Shown: positions 1 through 32,232 of the stretch, piece after piece | How the letters are laid out: every line of letters begins with the position of its first letter | Position numbering within the stretch: position 1 is the first letter of the stretch | Source: Bacteroidaceae bacterium | Lineage (GTDB): Bacteria > Bacteroidota > Bacteroidia > Bacteroidales > Bacteroidaceae | Length of the DNA: 51,449 nt | Direction of reading: 5' to 3' | Assembly (NCBI GenBank): GCA_024401215.1 | Contig: JAKSLL010000021.1 | Coordinates: forward strand, 1 to 51,449 | The notes under the pieces: model-generated | Databases searched by the model: none | What the model was told of the DNA's origin: nothing | The model's input: only the letters and a program-made list of their open reading frames with translations | Position numbers and translations under genes: made by a program

Positions 1-296
1 TTGATAACTTCGTGGATGAAAGAGTTCTCACTTTGCTGACCAAAAGAGAAAAAGGGGTGTCGGCTACGATACACTCTCGCTATACCGAACAGTTCAAGTT
101 GGATGTGGAGAAGCACAATGAGCAATACGATACTGTGGTGTTCGTACAGTTGCCCCATAAATCCCATGACCGTTTCTTGGTTGTTGATGATGATGTGTAC
201 CTGATGGGTGCAAGTGTCAAGGATATGGGTACCAGCCTTTGCGCTATAACAAAGATGGAGATGTCGCCAGATGTAGTATTGAATTTGCTGAAATGA
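1..296 (+). CDS. C-terminal part of an ORF6N/KilA-N-type protein (cut by window edge)
   Basis: The open frame enters from the left edge (Asp-Asn-Phe precede the GTG at 12), so this is the end of a longer gene and that GTG is probably not the start. The tail HDRFLVVDDDVYLMGASVKD resembles the C-terminal region that Bacteroidales ORF6N proteins carry behind their DNA-binding domain (HDRFLIID...GASLKDLG type). The N-terminal DNA-binding half is outside the window. Such proteins are common near mobile elements and are thought to be phage-derived regulators; I see nothing that gives a specific role. The family call rests on recalled similarity of a short segment. Confidence 0.6.
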   Translation, partial: DNFVDERVLTLLTKREKGVSATIHSRYTEQFKLDVEKHNEQYDTVVFVQLPHKSHDRFLVVDDDVYLMGASVKDMGTSLCAITKMEMSPDVVLNLLK

Positions 297-17705: not shown

Positions 17706-17950
17706 GTCTTATTTGGATGCTTTTCAATGAGTTTTTGCTATGGAAATGCGTCGGGAAATGGATTTTTTGTTGATTAATAGAGAAGGTTTTGAAGTGATGT
17801 CTTTGACTCAATAGGATAGAGGGGAGTTTTGTTCCAAACGCATTTGTCACTTCTCTACCAAACATTCCTCCACATTGCGAGTCTCACGAGAAATATTCAC
17901 AGGGTCACAGGGACAGGTCCTTGATCCACTTAGGATAGCAAGTACGGTGT

Positions 17951-18012
17951 TCCGCTATCCGCTAATAATACAATCGAGGCATCCCACGCTTTTCATTAGC
18001 ACAGGATGCCTC
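17951..18012 (-). repeat. 62-bp hairpin repeat, copy A (terminator of the ATPase at 18021)
   Basis: This copy matches 19561-19622 at about 56 of 62 positions. Its core is the hairpin GAGGCATCC / GGATGCCTC (9-bp stem). It begins nine bases beyond the stop of the downstream ATPase gene on the minus strand, so it probably ends that transcript. Its reuse behind both ATPase genes suggests that it moved or was duplicated with them. Confidence 0.65.
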
Positions 18013-18020
18013 TATTTCTT

Positions 18021-19373
18021 TCACCATTCCCCGATAACACCACTCTCTGGTTGAAAGAACATAATGTTGTAGATTGGCATGTAGGTGATGGCACCGTCTG
18101 CGGATACGAGATTTTCATTGCTCAACACGTAAGCGTGATTTATGTGATAGTCTTTTATTTCAAGGAACTTATCAAGGGCACTATGGATAGTATAGCTCTT
18201 GCCTGATTTTACCTCGATTGGCATTGTGGAGAGGTGGGCAGGATCGTCAATCAGGTAATCCACCTCACCATTCTTCTTGTTGTCATAATAGTAGCATCCG
18301 TTGCCATGGGCAGACAGCTCTTGTGCCACGAAAGATTCATAAACGGCTCCAAGATTAACGCTACATTCATCGTCCATGACGGCTTTTATGTTGTTGCGAT
18401 AAAGTTGTGCTGTCAGCATTCCCACATCGTTCATATAGAGCTTCAGCAAGTTTTTGCCTTCGTTTTGGTTCAGAGGATAGGTAGGTTGGCTGATAGCCTT
18501 GCATTCAAGAGTGATGCCTGATGCAACAAGATATTCAAATTCATCTTCGTAATCTGTCATGCGTTTGCCCTTCTTTCCTTCAATATCCTTTGCAACAACA
18601 CGTTTCTTCTTGTTCTCCATGAGTGAAGGAACCATATTGTAGATACGTTGTATCTTCAGCTTCTTACCAGATTCATTCTCATACTTTGCCGCATCATTTA
18701 GATACAAATCGTGTATGTCACTATGTATCTGTCGTATTGCCATTATGTTCTGTTCTGTCACAAAAGTGTTGACTGCATCTGGTAATCCTCCTACAAGAAG
18801 GTATTTGCGCAGAAGGTTCATAATACGATTATGAAGTCCCTCGTTGATTGTTTCGCCTTTATCAAATGCTTCGCGCATCGCTTGAATTACAAGTTCGCCA
18901 ACACCATTTGCCCAAAGAAACTCCTCAAAGTCAAGTGGGAACATGCGTGCGCGTTCATAACGGCCACCAGGGATTGATTGTGTCTTTTTGAGCGTTATGC
19001 CCAATTGTGAGCCACTGGCGATATAGGTGAACTTGCCTTCGTCCATCAGAAACTTCACCAGTGTCAATAGGTGGTCGTAAGCTTGAATTTCGTCTATAAA
19101 GACCAGAGTTGTATCTTTACTTTTCATCTTGTCACCAGCCACTGCGCTCAATGCCATGTAAAAGTCCTTTGTGGTCTTAGCATTGGCAAAAATGCGTTCG
19201 CCCTGCTTGTCCTCTTCCATGTTTATCTCAATATAGTTGGGGTAAAGTTGCTTGCCAATATGACGAATGATATACGACTTTCCTATTTGACGTGCACCAT
19301 CAACCAAAAGCATCTTGTGAGAAGGCGCTTTTAAGTACGTTTCTATTTTGTTATAAATCTTACGTTTAAGCAT
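18021..19373 (-). CDS. AAA ATPase with DUF4143 domain (AAA_14 family), copy A
   Basis: The 450-residue protein has an N-terminal ATPase domain with Walker A GARQIGKS (residues 26-33) and Walker B VFIDEIQ (91-97), and a C-terminal DUF4143 region. The latter carries a PD-(D/E)XK-like nuclease signature: Asp372 in EVDYLI, then Glu387 and Lys389 in PIEVKSGK. Such proteins are highly expanded in Prevotella and Bacteroides, and their cellular role is not settled. It is paralogous to the gene at 19642. A 33-bp tandem repeat begins seven bases upstream of the start codon. The two copies are clearly diverged, not a recent duplication. Confidence 0.85.
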   Translation of the reverse strand: MLKRKIYNKIETYLKAPSHKMLLVDGARQIGKSYIIRHIGKQLYPNYIEINMEEDKQGERIFANAKTTKDFYMALSAVAGDKMKSKDTTLVFIDEIQAYDHLLTLVKFLMDEGKFTYIASGSQLGITLKKTQSIPGGRYERARMFPLDFEEFLWANGVGELVIQAMREAFDKGETINEGLHNRIMNLLRKYLLVGGLPDAVNTFVTEQNIMAIRQIHSDIHDLYLNDAAKYENESGKKLKIQRIYNMVPSLMENKKKRVVAKDIEGKKGKRMTDYEDEFEYLVASGITLECKAISQPTYPLNQNEGKNLLKLYMNDVGMLTAQLYRNNIKAVMDDECSVNLGAVYESFVAQELSAHGNGCYYYDNKKNGEVDYLIDDPAHLSTMPIEVKSGKSYTIHSALDKFLEIKDYHINHAYVLSNENLVSADGAITYMPIYNIMFFQPESGVIGEW

Positions 19374-19380
19374 TTGTTAA

Positions 19381-19456
19381 TACACTTTTCCTGTGAATAC
19401 GGTGGTGTAAAAATACACTTTTCCTATAAAATGGTGGTGTAAAAATAACACTTTTC
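19381..19456 (-). repeat. 33-bp tandem repeat upstream of ATPase copy A (about 2.3 units)
   Basis: Units start at 19381, 19414 and 19446 (partial), each opening with TACACTTTTC or TAACACTTTTC and containing GGTGGTGTAAAAA. Across each junction GTGTA and TACAC form a small inverted repeat. The block ends seven bases before the ATPase start codon, so it lies in the leader or promoter. No clear TAnnTTTG box was found upstream of it. Confidence 0.8.
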
Positions 19457-19560
19457 TTTTATCTGTGCAAGGAAAAGCATGAAAATTATGATGCAACAGG
19501 AACGTTTGACTTCGTCGAGCTTCGGTTCTATCTTGCATCTTAAGAAATAGCAGGGATATT

Positions 19561-19622
19561 TTCGCTGCCCGCTAATTATACATTCGAGGCATCCCACGCT
19601 ATTCATTAGCACAGGATGCCTC
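19561..19622 (-). repeat. 62-bp hairpin repeat, copy B (terminator of the ATPase at 19642)
   Basis: This is the second copy of the repeat at 17951-18012, with the same GAGGCATCC / GGATGCCTC stem. It lies about 20 bases downstream of the stop of ATPase copy B on the minus strand. Confidence 0.65.
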
Positions 19623-19641
19623 GATTGTTTTTGTCTTAGTA

Positions 19642-20979
19642 TTAAATCTCTGTCAATAGGAATGCCATATAGAAAGGCAACGTGAGCAATGGTCCGTTGC
19701 GTCCCACATTATAGTCACCAAACTTCAATGCGTGATAAACGTGGTACTTTTCTGGGTGCTTCAAAAGCGTCTGCATAGACTTTGCATTGCCTGTACGTGC
19801 TTTGCATTCTATTGGAGTGCATTCGCCTTGGTAGCGCATCACGAAGTCAATTTCTATGCTGTCGGGCTTTTGGTAATAATAAAGCTTACGCCCCATCTTG
19901 CCTAAGATGTCTGCCAATACATTCTCATAGATAGCCCCTTTGAAGCTTCCCAAGCGTCCTTGCAGAATATCAGATTGTGTTCCTTCGTCGAGCATACTTA
20001 TGAAAAGACCTGTGTCTGCCATGTATATCTTGAAACAATCTTGCAATGCATTTCCGCTCAGTGGCAGTTCCGTGATGCTGAGGTTGTGACATCGACGCAC
20101 AATACCAGCATCCTCTATCCATTGCAAACTGCCGACATACTCTTTACTGCGACCTCCCTTACGCACTACGGAATAAGTGAATTTCTTATTGTCGCGACTC
20201 AACTGGCGAGGTATTGACTCAAAGCACTCACGAATGCGTGGCTTATCTTCCGATTGAGCATACTTCACCATATCAACCTTGTACTCATCGATAATGGTTC
20301 GCTGCACAGCAACCATTTGATTCACATCATGCGTGTTGAGGAAAGTGCTGACAGCTTCAGGCATTCCTCCAACGATGACGTACTCCAGCAGCAGCTGTCG
20401 CATTCGCTGATGTATTGCTTCAGGAACAGGAGATTCATTTTGCATGTATTGTTTCAGCAAATCTATTACAGGTTGTTGTATCTGGTTTGCCCAAAGCCAT
20501 TCCTCAAAGTCCATCGGATACATGTCAACGATAGTCTCAAAACCTACAGGGACGGATGTGGATTCTTCATCCTTCTGTTGTTCTTCCGATTTGTAACCAT
20601 TTACACCTAATAACGATCCTGTACAGATAACATCGTACCGTCCATCCAGTTTGAAGAACTTCAACGCAGCTCGTGCTTGTGGACAGTCTTGTATCTCATC
20701 AAGAATAATACAAGTCTTGCCAGGAACGAATGTTGCATCAGGAATGGCTGCCGTGATGACAACAGTAAGATAATCCACTTTCAGCGACCCTTGGAACAAC
20801 GCACGCAGTTCTTTTTGTTCATGAAAATCCATGTAAACGACATGCTTATAGTGCTGCTCAGCGAATGCTTTCACCGAACTTGTTTTACCGCACTGACGGC
20901 AACCTTTTATGACCAATGGCTTATGACTTGGTATCTCTTTCCATCGGAGTAAAACCTCCTCAATTTTCCTTCGATACAT
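19642..20979 (-). CDS. AAA ATPase with DUF4143 domain (AAA_14 family), copy B
   Basis: The 445-residue protein has Walker A GCRQCGKTS (residues 26-34), Walker B IILDEIQ (91-97) and a glycine-rich sensor segment CTGSLLGV. MYPMDFEEWLWANQ at ~162-175 matches MFPLDFEEFLWANG in copy A. The C-terminal DUF4143 region ends with a PD-(D/E)XK pattern: Asp378 in EIDFVMRY, then Glu391 and Lys393 in PIECKAR. It is a diverged paralogue of copy A with the same orientation, its own 33-bp tandem repeat upstream and the same hairpin repeat downstream. Function is unknown; DNA binding or cleavage is possible from the nuclease-like signature. Confidence 0.85.
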   Translation of the reverse strand: MYRRKIEEVLLRWKEIPSHKPLVIKGCRQCGKTSSVKAFAEQHYKHVVYMDFHEQKELRALFQGSLKVDYLTVVITAAIPDATFVPGKTCIILDEIQDCPQARAALKFFKLDGRYDVICTGSLLGVNGYKSEEQQKDEESTSVPVGFETIVDMYPMDFEEWLWANQIQQPVIDLLKQYMQNESPVPEAIHQRMRQLLLEYVIVGGMPEAVSTFLNTHDVNQMVAVQRTIIDEYKVDMVKYAQSEDKPRIRECFESIPRQLSRDNKKFTYSVVRKGGRSKEYVGSLQWIEDAGIVRRCHNLSITELPLSGNALQDCFKIYMADTGLFISMLDEGTQSDILQGRLGSFKGAIYENVLADILGKMGRKLYYYQKPDSIEIDFVMRYQGECTPIECKARTGNAKSMQTLLKHPEKYHVYHALKFGDYNVGRNGPLLTLPFYMAFLLTEI

Positions 20980-21025
20980 GTTCTATAGTGGTAATCAAGT
21001 AGATATATGTGTTAGATACATAAAA

Positions 21026-21103
21026 TCGGGCGACTTTTTGTGCGATTGTCACACTTTTTCGGGCGACTTTTTTCATAATCGCCACACTTTTTCGGGCGAC
21101 TTT
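21026..21103 (-). repeat. 33-bp tandem repeat upstream of ATPase copy B (about 2.4 units)
   Basis: Units start at 21026, 21059 and 21092 (partial), each opening with TCGGGCGACTTT; the two full units contain CACACTTTTT. The period is exactly 33. The sequence differs from the repeat before copy A, but both share an ACACTTTT core and the same period. It ends 47 bases before the ATPase start codon and begins at the predicted start of transcription. Confidence 0.85.
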
Positions 21104-21109
21104 CGCTTG

Positions 21110-21117
21110 CAAAGTTA
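21110..21117 (-). promoter_or_regulatory. Promoter -7 box of ATPase copy B
   Basis: The minus strand reads TAACTTTG. Transcription would start near 21103, so the 33-bp units would be transcribed as the leader of the ATPase mRNA. The remainder of the 404-base gap, 21118-21276, shows no gene. Confidence 0.6.
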
Positions 21118-21276
21118 CATCTTAATTTAGATTTACCATCACTATCTTGCCTTTTTTTATGTATTATAATAGGATTTTAATGGCGAATCTTACTGTGAAT
21201 GGATGCAATAGGAACCGTTTCTCTCTTGCATCTGAGAATATCGGGGCGGTTTCACTATCCGCATATGAAGGCTTGC

Positions 21277-21312
21277 AAAAAGGAGTGAAGTCATGGCGAT
21301 TTCACTCCTTTT
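21277..21312 (-). terminator. Terminator of the dockerin operon
   Basis: AAAAGGAGTGAA and TTCACTCCTTTT pair (21278-21289 with 21301-21312) around an 11-base loop. On the minus strand the stem runs into a T-run. It lies about 75 bases after the dockerin gene. Confidence 0.7.
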
Positions 21313-21383
21313 CTGATGTTGTGCCTATTTATAGCTCTTTTATCCTTAAGAAACTCTATAGGATGTTGTTGCTGTACTATTAC

Positions 21384-21788
21384 TTACTTGCCTAATATAA
21401 TATTCACGAGCGTTGTTATGTCGTTGATGTTGATATCTTTGTCTCCATTCACATCTGCAAATCCTGTTGAGTCTGTTGACTTGCCGAGGATGATGTTGAC
21501 AAGAGTTGTGACATCGTTGATGTTGACGTTGCCGTCGCCATTCACATCGCCTTTCTTCGCTGTTCTCTTGATGCGGAGAACGAGGCGTTCATCCTTAGAG
21601 AACTCTGTGCTATTGGTGTTGTCGGTGAATGTGAGTGATGTTGCACCAATCACTAACTTAGGACTATTTTGCAGCGACAGCTCTGCATGCTTAGAGGGTG
21701 AAACGGCTTCAACAATCTGCTCGCTTTGCGCCTTTGCCGACAAACATGCTGTCAGCAAGGCGATTAGGAGAAATATCTTTGCTTTCAT
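21384..21788 (-). CDS. Small secreted dockerin-domain protein
   Basis: The 134-residue protein has a signal peptide (cleavage near residue 20, SAKAQ), about 55 residues without recognised fold, and a type I dockerin made of two calcium-binding repeats. These are GDVNGDGNVNINDVTTLVN (80-98) and ADVNGDKDININDITTLVN (111-129); the Asp and Asn residues of the loops fit EF-hand-like calcium binding. Dockerins normally bind cohesins. Many Prevotella secreted proteins carry such domains without a known cellulosome, so the partner is unknown. The gene follows the secreted protein at 21790 with a one-base gap, so the two are co-translated. Confidence 0.88.
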   Translation of the reverse strand: MKAKIFLLIALLTACLSAKAQSEQIVEAVSPSKHAELSLQNSPKLVIGATSLTFTDNTNSTEFSKDERLVLRIKRTAKKGDVNGDGNVNINDVTTLVNIILGKSTDSTGFADVNGDKDININDITTLVNIILGK

Positions 21789-21789
21789 T

Positions 21790-22632
21790 TCAATAATTGT
21801 TTATTCTGGCAATTATACTTAGTTTTTTAGTGTCGCTATTTAGTACGGTGTACCATAAATAGTAAGTTTTTCCATTGATTGTTTTGGTCTTTCCCATTTT
21901 GGATGTACCTTCTGAGAACAAGGTTCCCCCGGACTTTGGATAACAAGAAGGACGTTTGTCATCAGGTGTCAATAGCACAATATAATTCCCCGCTGTATAA
22001 TCTTCCTCTATGTTATCAGAGTACATAGCAATAAAATCATTTTCTTTCAAATTCGCTATTTCTTCTTCACTTTTAGCACTCATATAATAAAATCCATAAT
22101 CTGCATTTAGGGTGATTTCGACTCGACGTTCATCCAATTGCATGATATCGTCAATCCACACACAGTATTTCTCACCATCTACGACAATGAAATTGTCACA
22201 GTCTGTTCCATAAATGTCATGGTAATATGTTGAAATGGAATAAATTCCATGAGGATTTGACCACATACCCATAGTCTCAAATCTAACCAACGGTGAATGG
22301 TACTCCTTGGTTAAAGTTATAAGGTGACCTTTTCCTTGTGGCCCTCTTACTTCTGATACATTACTTCTTATTTTGTGCTTTGTGGCGGCTTCTATCATTG
22401 AAGCGGTCAATACTCCATCCTCACTAAACGTTTTATATACATTATCGCTAATGTAACCATAGTATCCCAACAACGGCAATGACTCGTCGTCGCCAGGGCA
22501 ATATACAACGCTGTCCACTGCTGAAATGTCCATCTCACGAGCCACATGGCCGTTCTTGTAGAGTTTAATGCTTTGCGCACTAACTGATAGGCTTGCTACA
22601 AGCACCATCAGAATCAAATAAAATCTTTTCAT
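21790..22632 (-). CDS. Secreted protein of unknown function
   Basis: The 280-residue protein has a signal peptide (residues ~1-19, cleavage at SVSAQ) and starts its mature part with SIKLYKNGHVAREMDISAVD. This short motif (LYKNG...VDSVVY) is common at the start of Prevotella and Bacteroides secreted proteins, often followed by extracellular domains. The rest has many aromatic and acidic residues and looks beta-rich; I recognise no family. It heads the operon with the dockerin protein and may be its partner. An 8-base C run (22758-22765) and a GC-rich hairpin (22684-22723) lie upstream; the latter may end the hypD transcript. Confidence 0.7.
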   Translation of the reverse strand: MKRFYLILMVLVASLSVSAQSIKLYKNGHVAREMDISAVDSVVYCPGDDESLPLLGYYGYISDNVYKTFSEDGVLTASMIEAATKHKIRSNVSEVRGPQGKGHLITLTKEYHSPLVRFETMGMWSNPHGIYSISTYYHDIYGTDCDNFIVVDGEKYCVWIDDIMQLDERRVEITLNADYGFYYMSAKSEEEIANLKENDFIAMYSDNIEEDYTAGNYIVLLTPDDKRPSCYPKSGGTLFSEGTSKMGKTKTINGKTYYLWYTVLNSDTKKLSIIARINNY

Positions 22633-22876: not shown

Positions 22877-25366
22877 TTAAAATTCTTCGTTTTCTGTACG
22901 AGCGATGATCTCGTTCTGCAGTTGCTCAGTCATGTCGTTGAAGTAGTCGGAATATCCTGCAACACGCACAAGCAGGTCTTTGTAATTCTCCGGCTGATGC
23001 TGTGCGTCGAGGAGTGTCTGAGTGTCAACGATGTTGAACTGTATGTGATGGCCTCCCATGCTGAAGTATGTGCGGATGAGGGATGCCAGCTTTCTCATGT
23101 CCTCTTCTCTTTTCAGGAGTGAAGGCACAAAGCGTACATTGAGGAGTGTGCCTCCTGATTTTGTCTGGTCGAGTTTGCCGAGCGACTTGATGACCGATGT
23201 TGGTCCGTTGGTGTCGGCGCCATGTGCTGGCGATGTGCCGTCGGAGATAGCGAACTTGGCAAGTCGTCCGTTGCAGCTTGCTCCGCAAACGCTGCCGAAA
23301 TAGTTATGGCAGGTTGTTGAGAGCATGTTGAGCTGTGTCTTTCCTCCTCGTGTGTTTGGATGTCCTTCGATAGCCTCTACGAGGTCGTCATACACCTTCA
23401 CGGCAATAGAGTCGGCGTAGTCGTCATCGTTGCCGAAGAATGGTGTGCGGTTGATGATGAACTGACGCATCTTCTCGTTGCCCTCGAAGTTCTCACTTAC
23501 GGCTTTAAGAATCTCGTCCATAGTGAATTTCTTGTCCTCAAACACATGCTTCTTGAGTGTTGACAGACAGTCGGTTGTTGTGCCGAGGCCTGTGCACTGG
23601 ATGTATGTCGTGTTGTAGCGAGCGCCGCCAGAGTAGTAGTCCTTGCCCTTTGTGATGCAGTCGTCGATGAAGAGGCTGAGGAATGTGGCAGGTGCGTAAA
23701 GCGAGAACATGCGCTCAATGTAGTTGTTGACAGCGAGCTTCATATTTACGAAATACACCATCTGCTTATGGTAGGCTTCGTACAGATCTTCGTAGCTCTT
23801 GAAAGAGCGAGGGTCGCCTGTCTCAAGACCAAGTTTCTTGCCGCTAACAGGATCGATGCCGTTGTTGAGAGTGATTTCCAGAATCTTAGGTGTGTTGAGG
23901 TATCCCGTCAGGATGTAAGCCTCTTTGCCGAACGCTCCCACCTCGATGCAGCCGGAGCATCCGCCTTCGTTTGCGTCTTCCTGTGTCTTGCCCTGACGAA
24001 CAAGTTCCTTGGTGTAGGTGTCGGGATTGAAGCATGAAGGGTATCCATGTCCTTGTCGGATAACTTTCACACCTGCCATGACAAAGTCGTCGGGAGTGAC
24101 TTTGCTGATGTGAATAGAGAGTCCTGGTTGGAGTTCGTGGAGCTCTTCCTGTACTTCGAGAATGATGTATGAAAGTTCGTTGACAGCGTCATTGCCGTAT
24201 TTGTCGATGCCGCCGATGTTGATGTTGGTGAAGTCGTTGTAAGTGCCTGATTCAAGAGCAGTCACGCCGACCTTTGGAGGAGCTGGCTGATTGTTGAACT
24301 TTATCCAGAAACAAGAGATGAGTTCCTTTGCTTTATCGCGAGTCATAGTGCCGTCCTCAAGTCCTTTCTTGTAGAAAGGGTAGAGGTGCTGGTCGATATG
24401 GCCAGGGTTCATGCAGTCCCATCCGTTGAGTTCGGTGACGGTGCCGAGATGAGTGAACCAGTATGTCTGGATTGCCTCTTGCATGTCACGAGGGGCGTGA
24501 GCAGGCACCCAGCGGCAGGTGTCGGCAATCTTTAGAAGTTCAGAGATTCTCTGTTCGTTTGCCTTTCTCTCCTCACTATCAATTCCTAACTCCTCATTCC
24601 TCATTCCTAATTCTGCAGCTTGCTGCTCCGCCAATTCTGCATGACGCTCAGCGAAAAGGATGGCAGCATCGCATGAGATGTCCATGGCTTGAAGCTCCTG
24701 CTGTTTGTCTGTTGCCTCAGGGTCGTTGATGAAGTCGAGCTTGTTGAGGGTGTCGGCAATGAGCTTCTTCACATCAAGCAGACCGCGCTGATACATCTTG
24801 CCGTCCATGGCTGTGTGTCCGCCAGCACGTTGCTCCATAAACTCAGTGAATACGCCAGCATGGTATGCCTCTTCCCATTCCTTGCTCACGTGAGAGAAGA
24901 TGCGCTCGCGCTGTGTGCGGCCCTCCCAGTAAGGGATGACTTCGCGCTCGTAGGTGTCGATGTCCTCTTGTGAGATGAAGTATGGCTGCATATCTCTGTC
25001 GTTGAGGGTGTGAAGATCCTCGACAGTGTGGCAGGTGAGTTCGGGGAAGGTAGGCACAGCCTTTGGCACAGGGCCACGTTCGCCGACTATAAGTTCATCT
25101 TTGCCGATGTATATTGTCTTCTTCTTGCAAAGTTCGTAGAAGTTTCTTGCACGAAGGATGCAGTTTGGCATTTTGCCGTAATTCTCCTTGTAGAAAGCTG
25201 TCTCGATGAGTGCTCGCTCAATGGTGAGCGTTGTTGGAGTGTCGATGCTCTCTTTATGCAGACGCTTTATGCGGTCATTCATGCCGCCGTCGTTTGCAGG
25301 GCATGTGAGAGAGAAGTTCATCTTTGAATGAGGCGCGCGAAAAGCGTTATCTTTTATTCCTGTCAT
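22877..25366 (-). CDS. hypD: Glycyl radical enzyme, probable trans-4-hydroxy-L-proline dehydratase
   Basis: The 829-residue enzyme has the PFL-like fold. The thiyl radical Cys473 and base Glu475 lie in GGCSGCIEVGAFGKEAY, and the glycyl radical Gly804 in RVAGYSDYF. GCIE rather than GCVEP separates it from choline lyase and glycerol dehydratase; the surroundings (GKEAYILTGYLNTPKILEIT) match HypD as I recall it. HypD removes water from hydroxyproline to give pyrroline-5-carboxylate, which ProC reduces to proline. Residues ~250-268 are an in-frame low-complexity insertion. The ATG at 25366 lies about 17 bases after the predicted start of transcription; an internal ATG at 25282 (MNDRIKRL) gives a family-like start. 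No activase is adjacent. Confidence 0.82.
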   Translation of the reverse strand: MTGIKDNAFRAPHSKMNFSLTCPANDGGMNDRIKRLHKESIDTPTTLTIERALIETAFYKENYGKMPNCILRARNFYELCKKKTIYIGKDELIVGERGPVPKAVPTFPELTCHTVEDLHTLNDRDMQPYFISQEDIDTYEREVIPYWEGRTQRERIFSHVSKEWEEAYHAGVFTEFMEQRAGGHTAMDGKMYQRGLLDVKKLIADTLNKLDFINDPEATDKQQELQAMDISCDAAILFAERHAELAEQQAAELGMRNEELGIDSEERKANEQRISELLKIADTCRWVPAHAPRDMQEAIQTYWFTHLGTVTELNGWDCMNPGHIDQHLYPFYKKGLEDGTMTRDKAKELISCFWIKFNNQPAPPKVGVTALESGTYNDFTNINIGGIDKYGNDAVNELSYIILEVQEELHELQPGLSIHISKVTPDDFVMAGVKVIRQGHGYPSCFNPDTYTKELVRQGKTQEDANEGGCSGCIEVGAFGKEAYILTGYLNTPKILEITLNNGIDPVSGKKLGLETGDPRSFKSYEDLYEAYHKQMVYFVNMKLAVNNYIERMFSLYAPATFLSLFIDDCITKGKDYYSGGARYNTTYIQCTGLGTTTDCLSTLKKHVFEDKKFTMDEILKAVSENFEGNEKMRQFIINRTPFFGNDDDYADSIAVKVYDDLVEAIEGHPNTRGGKTQLNMLSTTCHNYFGSVCGASCNGRLAKFAISDGTSPAHGADTNGPTSVIKSLGKLDQTKSGGTLLNVRFVPSLLKREEDMRKLASLIRTYFSMGGHHIQFNIVDTQTLLDAQHQPENYKDLLVRVAGYSDYFNDMTEQLQNEIIARTENEEF

Positions 25367-25397: not shown

Positions 25398-25572
25398 CGA
25401 CATTTTTTTAAGTTGGTATTTATTCTTAATACAAAAAAGCGTGATGTGCGTATCGCCATTTGTGCTATCAGTCACATACTGCTATTTTGCTTTTCATATT
25501 GTTACCCCTCTATGTAAATATTGACTTGCAGTTGTTTGTCAGTATATGCTTTATGCCCCCTTTGAAGCACGC

Positions 25573-25662
25573 CTTGTGTAACACATGCAACACACCTTGT
25601 GTTACGCGTGTAACATGCCGTATGTTACGCGTGTAACATGCAGCGTGTGACAGATGTTACAT
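25573..25662. repeat. 23-bp imperfect tandem repeat with GTTACGCGTGTAAC palindromes
   Basis: Four units start at 25573, 25596, 25619 and 25642. The second and third are closest and contain GTTACGCGTGTAAC (25601-25614 and 25624-25637), a near-palindrome; the outer two are degenerate (GTGTAACACATGC, GTGTGACAGATGTTACA). It lies in the 508-base gap between the divergent hypD and trxB genes. It may be a regulator binding array or a degenerate interspersed repeat. The rest of the gap (25400-25572) shows no gene. Confidence 0.6.
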
Positions 25663-32093: not shown

Positions 32094-32232
32094 ACTTGTT
32101 GTGTAGTTAAAGGGTAGTTAAAGAGAAGTTAAAGGGTAGTTAAAGTGACAAATGTCCGACATGGCAAACGTCTCTTTAACTCCGAGCGAAGCGATAACTC
32201 CTCTTTAACTACCCTTTAACTTCACAACAAGT
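32094..32232. repeat. Inverted repeat built from 11-bp AGTTAAAG units
   Basis: The left arm 32094-32132 and right arm 32194-32232 are reverse complements over 39 bases with about three mismatches (ACTTGTTGTG ends). Within the left side four 11-bp units AGTTAAAGNNN lie end to end (32105, 32116, 32127, 32138). The right arm holds matching units on the other strand, with one more at 32170-32184. It lies in the gap 31966-32475 before the rpsL promoter; no gene is present. A short piece near it, ATACAAGTTTCGCT (from 32078), recurs at 30833. It may be a MITE-like element. Confidence 0.75.

Follow-up and report, generated by a model that had tools for sequence, protein, structure and literature searches.

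The iteron-binding Rep initiators of plasmids and archaeal Orc1/Cdc6 are winged-helix proteins that bind DNA, with direct repeats set at a fixed helical interval next to their genes. Here we analyse direct repeats in a stretch of 51,449 nucleotides from a Bacteroidaceae bacterium (assembly GCA_024401215.1, contig JAKSLL010000021.1, positions 1 to 51,449; hereafter the window), in which two paralogous AAA_14/DUF4143 ATPase genes, A and B, are each preceded by a tandem array with a period of 33 base pairs (bp). Our favoured reading, drawn from sequence comparisons, is that each ATPase-nuclease probably binds its own iterated operator through a winged helix and autoregulates. Both genes belong to PDC-S01, which PADLOC and the relevant passages of PMC12988326 treat as a single-gene phage-defence candidate with an ATPase domain fused to a member of the PD-(D/E)XK superfamily. 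The same passages rank it as the fourth most common defence across prokaryotes (29,494 bacterial and 9,986 archaeal instances) and describe validation as pending for most such candidates, and in the corresponding passages of a rumen survey it is the most frequent individual locus (PMC13356809). The PDC-S01 passages of these two papers cover distribution and evolution, and promoter arrays or autoregulation are absent from them. One Thermus AAA_14/DUF4143 gene is listed, in the part of PMC4406477 that concerns it, among the transcripts that change with a plasmid.

A regulatory parallel is provided by RptR, which, according to the pertinent passages of PMC12255303, represses a defence island of the restriction-modification type via three direct repeats over the -10 box. 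The logic is the same, namely direct repeats over the promoter of a defence locus, but RptR is described there as a small dedicated repressor that uses a 6-bp palindrome in 9-bp repeats, whereas here the effector itself is the proposed reader and the units are non-palindromic, lie 22-33 bp apart and differ between paralogues. TAGCTA palindromes in 9-bp repeats of the RptR type do not occur among our listed units, which are of other sequence and mostly 33 bp apart. Orc1/Cdc6, in turn, joins an AAA+ ATPase to a winged helix, as we propose for protein A. In contrast to Orc1/Cdc6 and the iteron Rep initiators, the DUF4143 genes are present in many copies per genome, encode a nuclease-type domain and have no Rep domain (none for A or B in Pfam at E≤0.01), and no replication function is indicated. 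A literature search on DUF4143/PDC-S01 genes and iterated operators, covering titles and the starts of abstracts, with subscription papers and preprints outside it, returned no description of these arrays among the papers listed; the original prediction, made from the letters of this DNA, had likewise known of none.

Arrays upstream of genes A and B

Gene A (18021..19373, minus strand) encodes a protein of 450 residues that combines AAA_14, a predicted winged helix and a PD-(D/E)XK-type domain, according to profile matches and a structure model. Its paralogue gene B (19642..20979, minus strand, profile matches) encodes 445 residues, and the two proteins share 27% identity. Both carry AAA_14 and DUF4143 above the Pfam gathering scores (91.3 and 83 bits in A, 76.1 and 106.6 bits in B), and in PADLOC both are near end-to-end matches to PDC-S01 models, with E-values of 2.6e-176 for A and 5.8e-152 for B. 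A search of NCBIfam gave a single match, far under its cut-off.

Tandem Repeats Finder reports a period of 33 bp and 2.4 copies directly upstream of each gene, at 19379-19456 for gene A (score 119) and at 21026-21103 for gene B (score 107). The two arrays share the core AAAAGTGT, read on the coding strand. Array A consists of three such cores in 33-bp steps, all on the minus strand: unit 1 at 19447..19457, with the variant core GAAAAGTGTTA (from the sequence and a pair search), and units 2 and 3, both GGAAAAGTGTA, at 19414..19424 and 19381..19391 (pair search and unit finder). Array B, also on the minus strand and delimited by Tandem Repeats Finder and the unit finder, has the longer 21-bp unit AAAGTCGCCCGAAAAAGTGTG at 21083..21103 and 21050..21070, and a partial third copy at 21017..21037 that retains only the first half, AAAGTCGCCCGA. 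The -7 box of gene B, TAACTTTG (21110..21117, minus strand, from the sequence and a pattern scan), is located 24 bp ahead of the first unit, so that the B units would open the messenger RNA (mRNA). For gene A, the sequence TATTTTTA (19408..19415, minus strand) has one mismatch to the -7 consensus TAnnTTTG and sits at the +8 offset, where several relatives carry a perfect box. The original prediction had anticipated the paired 33-bp repeats, the AAA/DUF4143 assignment, the common core and the box of gene B with its consequence for the mRNA, and all of these are borne out.

The segments that follow the two genes, 17950-18016 after A and 19560-19626 after B, have 67 bp in common at 90% identity, despite the low identity of the proteins. 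Part of this segment also matches in inverted orientation, resembling a terminator or a small mobile intergenic element.

Enrichment across the family

The genome of the window (4.35 Mb in 234 contigs) has 15 DUF4143 matches, and by eye 12 of these genes are preceded by an array of their own, each of differing sequence. The periods are mostly 32 or 33 bp; one array has a period of 23 bp with five units, and one, before the gene at locus L014, a period of 52 bp. This last gene is a PDC-S27, while the other six of the seven own-genome paralogues scanned match PDC-S01 best. At L014 (positions 480-740, contig C12 of the same genome) two 52-bp direct repeats lie upstream, each with an inverted repeat TTTTACCCAAAT...ATTTGGGTAAAA; PDC-S27, a second candidate-defence family, may thus have the same kind of self-operator, as judged from this single gene.

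We compared upstream regions with 100 dinucleotide shuffles each, at periods of 21-24 and 31-34 bp, counting p≤0.01 as a pass. In the window's genome 11 of 14 DUF4143 genes pass, against 13 of 253 other genes, two of which have a weak 33-bp periodicity (scores 10 and 11). Within a background of 261 genes, drawn from roughly 427 kb of this genome (the window plus 20 stretches, several from DUF4143-bearing contigs), a best period of 31-34 bp at a score of at least 12 occurs upstream of seven genes, every one of them DUF4143. The exact pair AAAAGTGT-(23..27)-AAAAGTGT occurs five times in the 4.35 Mb, in three places that are all ahead of DUF4143 genes, and the reversed control pattern has no occurrence there. 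Among 198 genomes of the order, a search for GGAAAAGTGTA pairs retrieved six arrays, and five of them precede a DUF4143-type ATPase gene; these five include the array of gene A itself and one whose gene is cut by the contig end after 54 residues. The sixth (L180:1501-1544, genome G040) contains a GGAAAAGTGTA pair and similar TACACTTTTTC copies, with no ATPase gene detected in its 3-kb locus, and was perhaps left behind after gene loss.

Over the whole family, 85 of 140 distinct DUF4143 genes are positive versus the 13 of 253 others (61% vs. 5%, Fisher p ~2e-34), the controls coming from the window's genome only and the DUF4143 genes from many genomes. The enrichment that the original prediction had expected upstream of DUF4143 genes is therefore present. 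Could such repeats be chance or slippage duplications devoid of function? Other tandem repeats are common in the window's genome and some control genes pass the test; set against this are the difference in frequency, the retention of the core while the spacers diverge, the conservation in relatives from several phyla and the co-variation with the protein described below, and we give this explanation next to no credence.

The period goes with the clade. The 85 positives are distributed over periods of 21 (1), 22 (4), 23 (20), 32 (23), 33 (36) and 34 bp (1). In the L001 clade 16 of 19 genes pass, each at 23 bp, and in the L050 clade all three are positive at 22 bp. In the window-like clades the passing genes number 9/9 (L007), 13/16 (L005), 16/29 (L004) and 8/12 (L009), and 43 of these 46 positives have a period of 32-33 bp, the other three having 21, 23 and 34 bp. 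Clades L037, L040, L051 and L053 combined give 3/22, and L041 is mixed (5/12). A period of 33 bp, which the original prediction had suggested looking for across the family, thus holds with its 32-bp variant for the window-like clades and gives way elsewhere to 22 or 23 bp, or to almost no arrays at all. Gene L006 was tallied as negative with a start called too early; by eye, two GAAAA units lie 33 bp apart before its next start codon.

In a scan of named genomes we found 80 relatives of gene A, under titles naming Bacteroidota, Clostridia and other Bacillota, Spirochaetia/Treponema and Fibrobacter, although single labels may be wrong because many are metagenome bins. An array of 31-35 bp at a score of at least 11 is present in 69 of the 79 relatives examined. 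Four of seven plasmid genes, assessed by repeat without the shuffle test, have a repeat of 32, 33 or 66 bp (32-bp arrays in A. baumannii and Vibrio, a 33-bp array in Segatella, a 66-bp repeat in Parabacteroides); the three others, from Fusobacterium, Ruminococcus albus and Acinetobacter sp. PK01 (whose gene has its reading frame cut), have none. The number of DUF4143 matches per genome searched ranges from 0 to 29 (29 in G015, 19 in G019, 17 in G363 and 16 in G366), the uneven copy numbers pointing to expansion and transfer.

Anatomy of the unit and promoter phasing

To describe the units we used an alignment of 76 proteins, comprising A, B, five more paralogues of the same genome and 69 loci. 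Unit chains were found upstream of 75 of the 76 genes and consist of three or more units in 71; the same finder detects three or more units before 5 of the 253 control genes and in 2 of the 75 shuffled upstream regions. The 192 steps between units measure 33 bp (154), 32 bp (30), 31 bp (5) or 34 bp (3). Counted from the G of GAAAA, identity between the units of an array is 0.70-0.97 at positions -2 to +9 and drops to 0.4-0.6 in the flanking positions and to about 0.3 over +16 to +21; the high value of the core arises partly by construction, because the finder seeks similar 12-mers, which does not apply to the low identity of the spacer. Each core begins with a constant half, which reads GGAAAA, TTGAAAA or, occasionally, GGAATAA, and continues into a gene-specific tail, recorded as GTGT, GTCA, CGCA, GTGG, GTTG, GTCC, CCGA and others.

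Promoter boxes were called by consensus only, with five of the six letters of TATAAT for a -10-like box and TAnnTTTG for a -7 box. Of the 26 Bacillota-type loci, 22 have a -10-like box 20 or 21 bp past the G of a unit; this offset accounts for 23 of all 53 such boxes, where about three would be expected if the boxes were spread evenly over 40 offsets. A box at this distance places TTGAAA units where a -35 element would stand, and the unit that follows at the probable transcription start. In Bacteroidota-type arrays TAnnTTTG is found at +8 to +10, +28 to +30 or +39 to +41 in 36 of 43 cases, where the last offset is one period beyond the first and +28 to +30 belongs to the CGCA class. The array therefore keeps a fixed phase to a -10 or -7 box in most loci, and by these consensus boxes the sites overlap the promoter of the proposed binder's own gene, as is expected of an operator.

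Because the units in most loci stand in fixed phase to promoter elements, their placement favours an operator over an element in the RNA. A riboswitch, an attenuator or repeat hairpins in the 5' leader would suit gene B and some others, in which the units follow the -7 box and stand at the beginning of the mRNA. In other members, however, the units lie upstream of the promoter or across it, Rfam gives no match at E≤1 in 17800-21800, and nothing obvious at the RNA level would call for a constant step of 33 bp. We consider a leader element very improbable and, given the missing Rfam match and the occurrence of units on either side of promoters, have rejected it.

Co-variation of the protein with its unit

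Across 61 units, the mutual information between the four-base tail and all alignment columns is highest for residue 271 (z 12.0; next 8.6), which in gene A is Arg-271, encoded at 18561..18563 on the minus strand. Units ending in GTGT are accompanied by Arg-271 in 23 of 23 cases, those in GTCA by Thr-271 in eight and Ser-271 in one of nine, and those in GTCC by Gln-271 in both. The CGCA tail goes with Arg-271 and Trp-269 together (7/7), and Trp-269 is found in none of the other 69 proteins. On a tree from which residues 236-296 were excluded, the column that comes top of 400 for changes coinciding with changes of the tail is residue 271 (7.6 vs. 2.6 expected, uncorrected p 7e-4). A two-state version, framed only after the table had been seen, has Arg-271 and GTGT/ATGT sharing seven of their nine and ten changes over 120 branches (p 7e-8). 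Five loci outside the alignment follow the tail rule without exception: L145, which is 89% identical to an alignment member, and L010, L147, L148 and L149, with 60-71% identity. An earlier pairwise partial correlation was dominated by nearly invariant columns, and residues 268, 269 and 271 came merely within its top 15.

In the AlphaFold2 model of protein A (mean predicted local distance difference test score 90.2, predicted template modelling score 0.90), the ATPase domain is followed by the region of residues 241-294 (18492..18653, minus strand) and then by the C-terminal nuclease-type domain. The middle region is modelled with helices at 241-253, 261-265 and 272-284 and a strand at 288-294, which we read as a putative winged helix with 272-284 as its recognition helix. 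Residue 271 lies at the start of this helix, through which the protein seems to read the unit. Co-variation of the repeat with the protein had been proposed in the original prediction for the C-terminal domain; the co-variation itself stands, and its location moves to the winged helix in the middle of the protein.

An unlinked transcription factor that reads the constant half, with the tails as mere lineage markers, would account for the GAAAA shared by nearly all units in the gene-A alignment, yet the paralogues of a single genome differ in their units, the top co-varying position lies within the ATPase and no neighbouring gene recurs among the 69 loci; we regard such a factor as improbable. 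A linked partner as reader was rejected for the lack of recurring neighbours: with two open reading frames of at least 80 residues inspected per side where the sequence allowed, no recurring partner gene was found in the 69 loci. The largest neighbour cluster spans five of them, its representative being itself a P-loop ATPase, and a same-strand open reading frame follows within 60 bp downstream in ten. Both the co-variation of the recognition helix with the unit and the lack of a recurring partner speak for the ATPase itself as reader, in preference to a linked factor, and the fixed phase of the units to promoter elements in most loci speaks for autoregulation. Enrichment, co-variation and phasing together support the autoregulatory form of the earlier proposal, in which each ATPase, or a linked factor, would recognise an iterated site of its own for autoregulation or cleavage.

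Several observations weigh on the other side. When only the third base of the tail is considered, residues 9 and 323 rank above residue 271, which comes third. The p-value of residue 271 on the tree fails correction for 400 columns on its own, and the two-state result carries the limit of its late framing. The link between Arg-271 and GTGT is one-way, since Arg-271 is also found with CGCA (7), GTGG (2) and CGTG (1), and in the distant L004 and L009 clades a simple one-residue code was sought by eye and none was seen. As to the arrays, 55 of the 140 DUF4143 genes fail the shuffle test, some clades being almost without arrays, and the enrichment draws its two groups from unequal sets of genomes. 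Seven of the 43 Bacteroidota-type arrays (both window genes, L002, L005, L103, L135 and L143) lack a perfect -7 box in any of the three offset ranges, and the offsets differ between subclasses, so that some arrays could activate.

Fold and nuclease-type domain

The original prediction had noted a PD-(D/E)XK-like signature, and this could be located at residues 342-389 of protein A (18207..18350, minus strand) by alignment and model. Glu-346, Asp-372, Glu-387 and Lys-389 are invariant across the 76 aligned proteins, and the model places them on a helix and successive strands. Acidic residues and an E-x-K motif on an alpha-beta core, which define the PD-(D/E)XK type, are thus present in both alignment and model, and the domain is a putative nuclease.

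The best Foldseek match of the model is PAB2304 (PDB-code: 2qen), with a template modelling score (TM-score) of 0.55 over the target and 0.44 over the query. This Walker-type ATPase of Pyrococcus abyssi differs in length (350 residues vs. 450) and has 14% identity; we know of no established function for it. Further matches are Orc1/Cdc6 on origin DNA (2qby), APAF-1, MuB and Avs3. They fit an AAA+ or STAND-like ATPase that could assemble on DNA, a likeness that is suggestive only because the TM-scores reach just 0.55. A sequence search for solved homologues returned nothing beyond a weak match to Midasin.

Might the array instead be a DNA target or loading platform, at which the PD-(D/E)XK domain nicks or cuts in self-targeting or in an origin-like complex, with regulation as a by-product? 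Initiators typically have iterated sites adjoining the gene of the binding protein, the nuclease-type positions are invariant, and the fold matches include loaders that join AAA+ to a winged helix (Orc1/Cdc6 on origin DNA) as well as MuB filaments. The fixed phase to the -10 and -7 boxes, on the other hand, is what an operator requires. Moreover, scans of IMG/VR by tail class (GTGTA, GTCA, CGCA) yielded five stretches: one lies ahead of a DUF4143 gene, and the remaining four have repeats that look unrelated and no DUF4143 gene detected within the stretch examined. We consider the target or platform explanation unlikely. On this outcome of the scans there is no sign of phage target arrays, and phage target or decoy arrays were rejected.

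Proposed mechanism

From the computed arrays, their conservation, their promoter phasing and the co-variation of residue and site, we infer that the proteins bind directly, assemble cooperatively and repress rather than activate, that paralogues are insulated from one another and that the family may be linked to phage defence. The repeats would constitute an iterated operator in which each unit is a binding site, of about 12 bp in the gene-A clade and longer in gene B. The sites, about three helical turns apart, would share one face of the DNA and span the ATPase gene's promoter. Residue 271 and its neighbours, at the start of the recognition helix, may read the variable tail, while a generic contact would read the constant GAAAA half. 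Adjacent molecules, held at a fixed spacing, could exclude RNA polymerase and so cause autorepression, which would last until titration of the protein, or a switch triggered by ATP or an infection signal, lifts it. With a code of its own for each paralogue, a dozen copies in one genome need not cross-regulate.

A bolder version, which we consider rather doubtful, takes the array as operator and sensor platform at once: ATP-dependent monomers would be held inhibited on their own 33-bp (or 23-bp) lattice, and their removal by infection or foreign DNA would derepress the gene and free the nuclease, while an evolving residue-to-base code would let a genome stack a dozen or more orthogonal, self-controlled copies.

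Other repeats

Elsewhere in the window, a period-23 tandem repeat of 3.1 copies (25568-25638) lies ahead of the gene at 22877-25366, whose product looks like a glycyl radical enzyme by its sequence, and arrays of the 11-bp GTAGTTAAAGG are found at 32103-32221, with similar ones near L005 and L029. Intergenic 23-bp arrays of the GCAAAGCATC type are located elsewhere in the window's genome (L018 near 6090 and L020 near 12306). Four unevenly spaced copies of GTCGGAAAAGTGTAATCG are present on a viral contig from IMG/VR (L277:13020-13239), where the stretch examined revealed no DUF4143 gene.

Implications

With this analysis PDC-S01 gains a proposed DNA ligand, a candidate recognition residue and a code open to test, which would allow its binding, autoregulation and triggering to be investigated jointly. 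The arrays also provide a large collection of natural pairs of candidate repressor and operator, and suggest how genomes may insulate many paralogues from one another.

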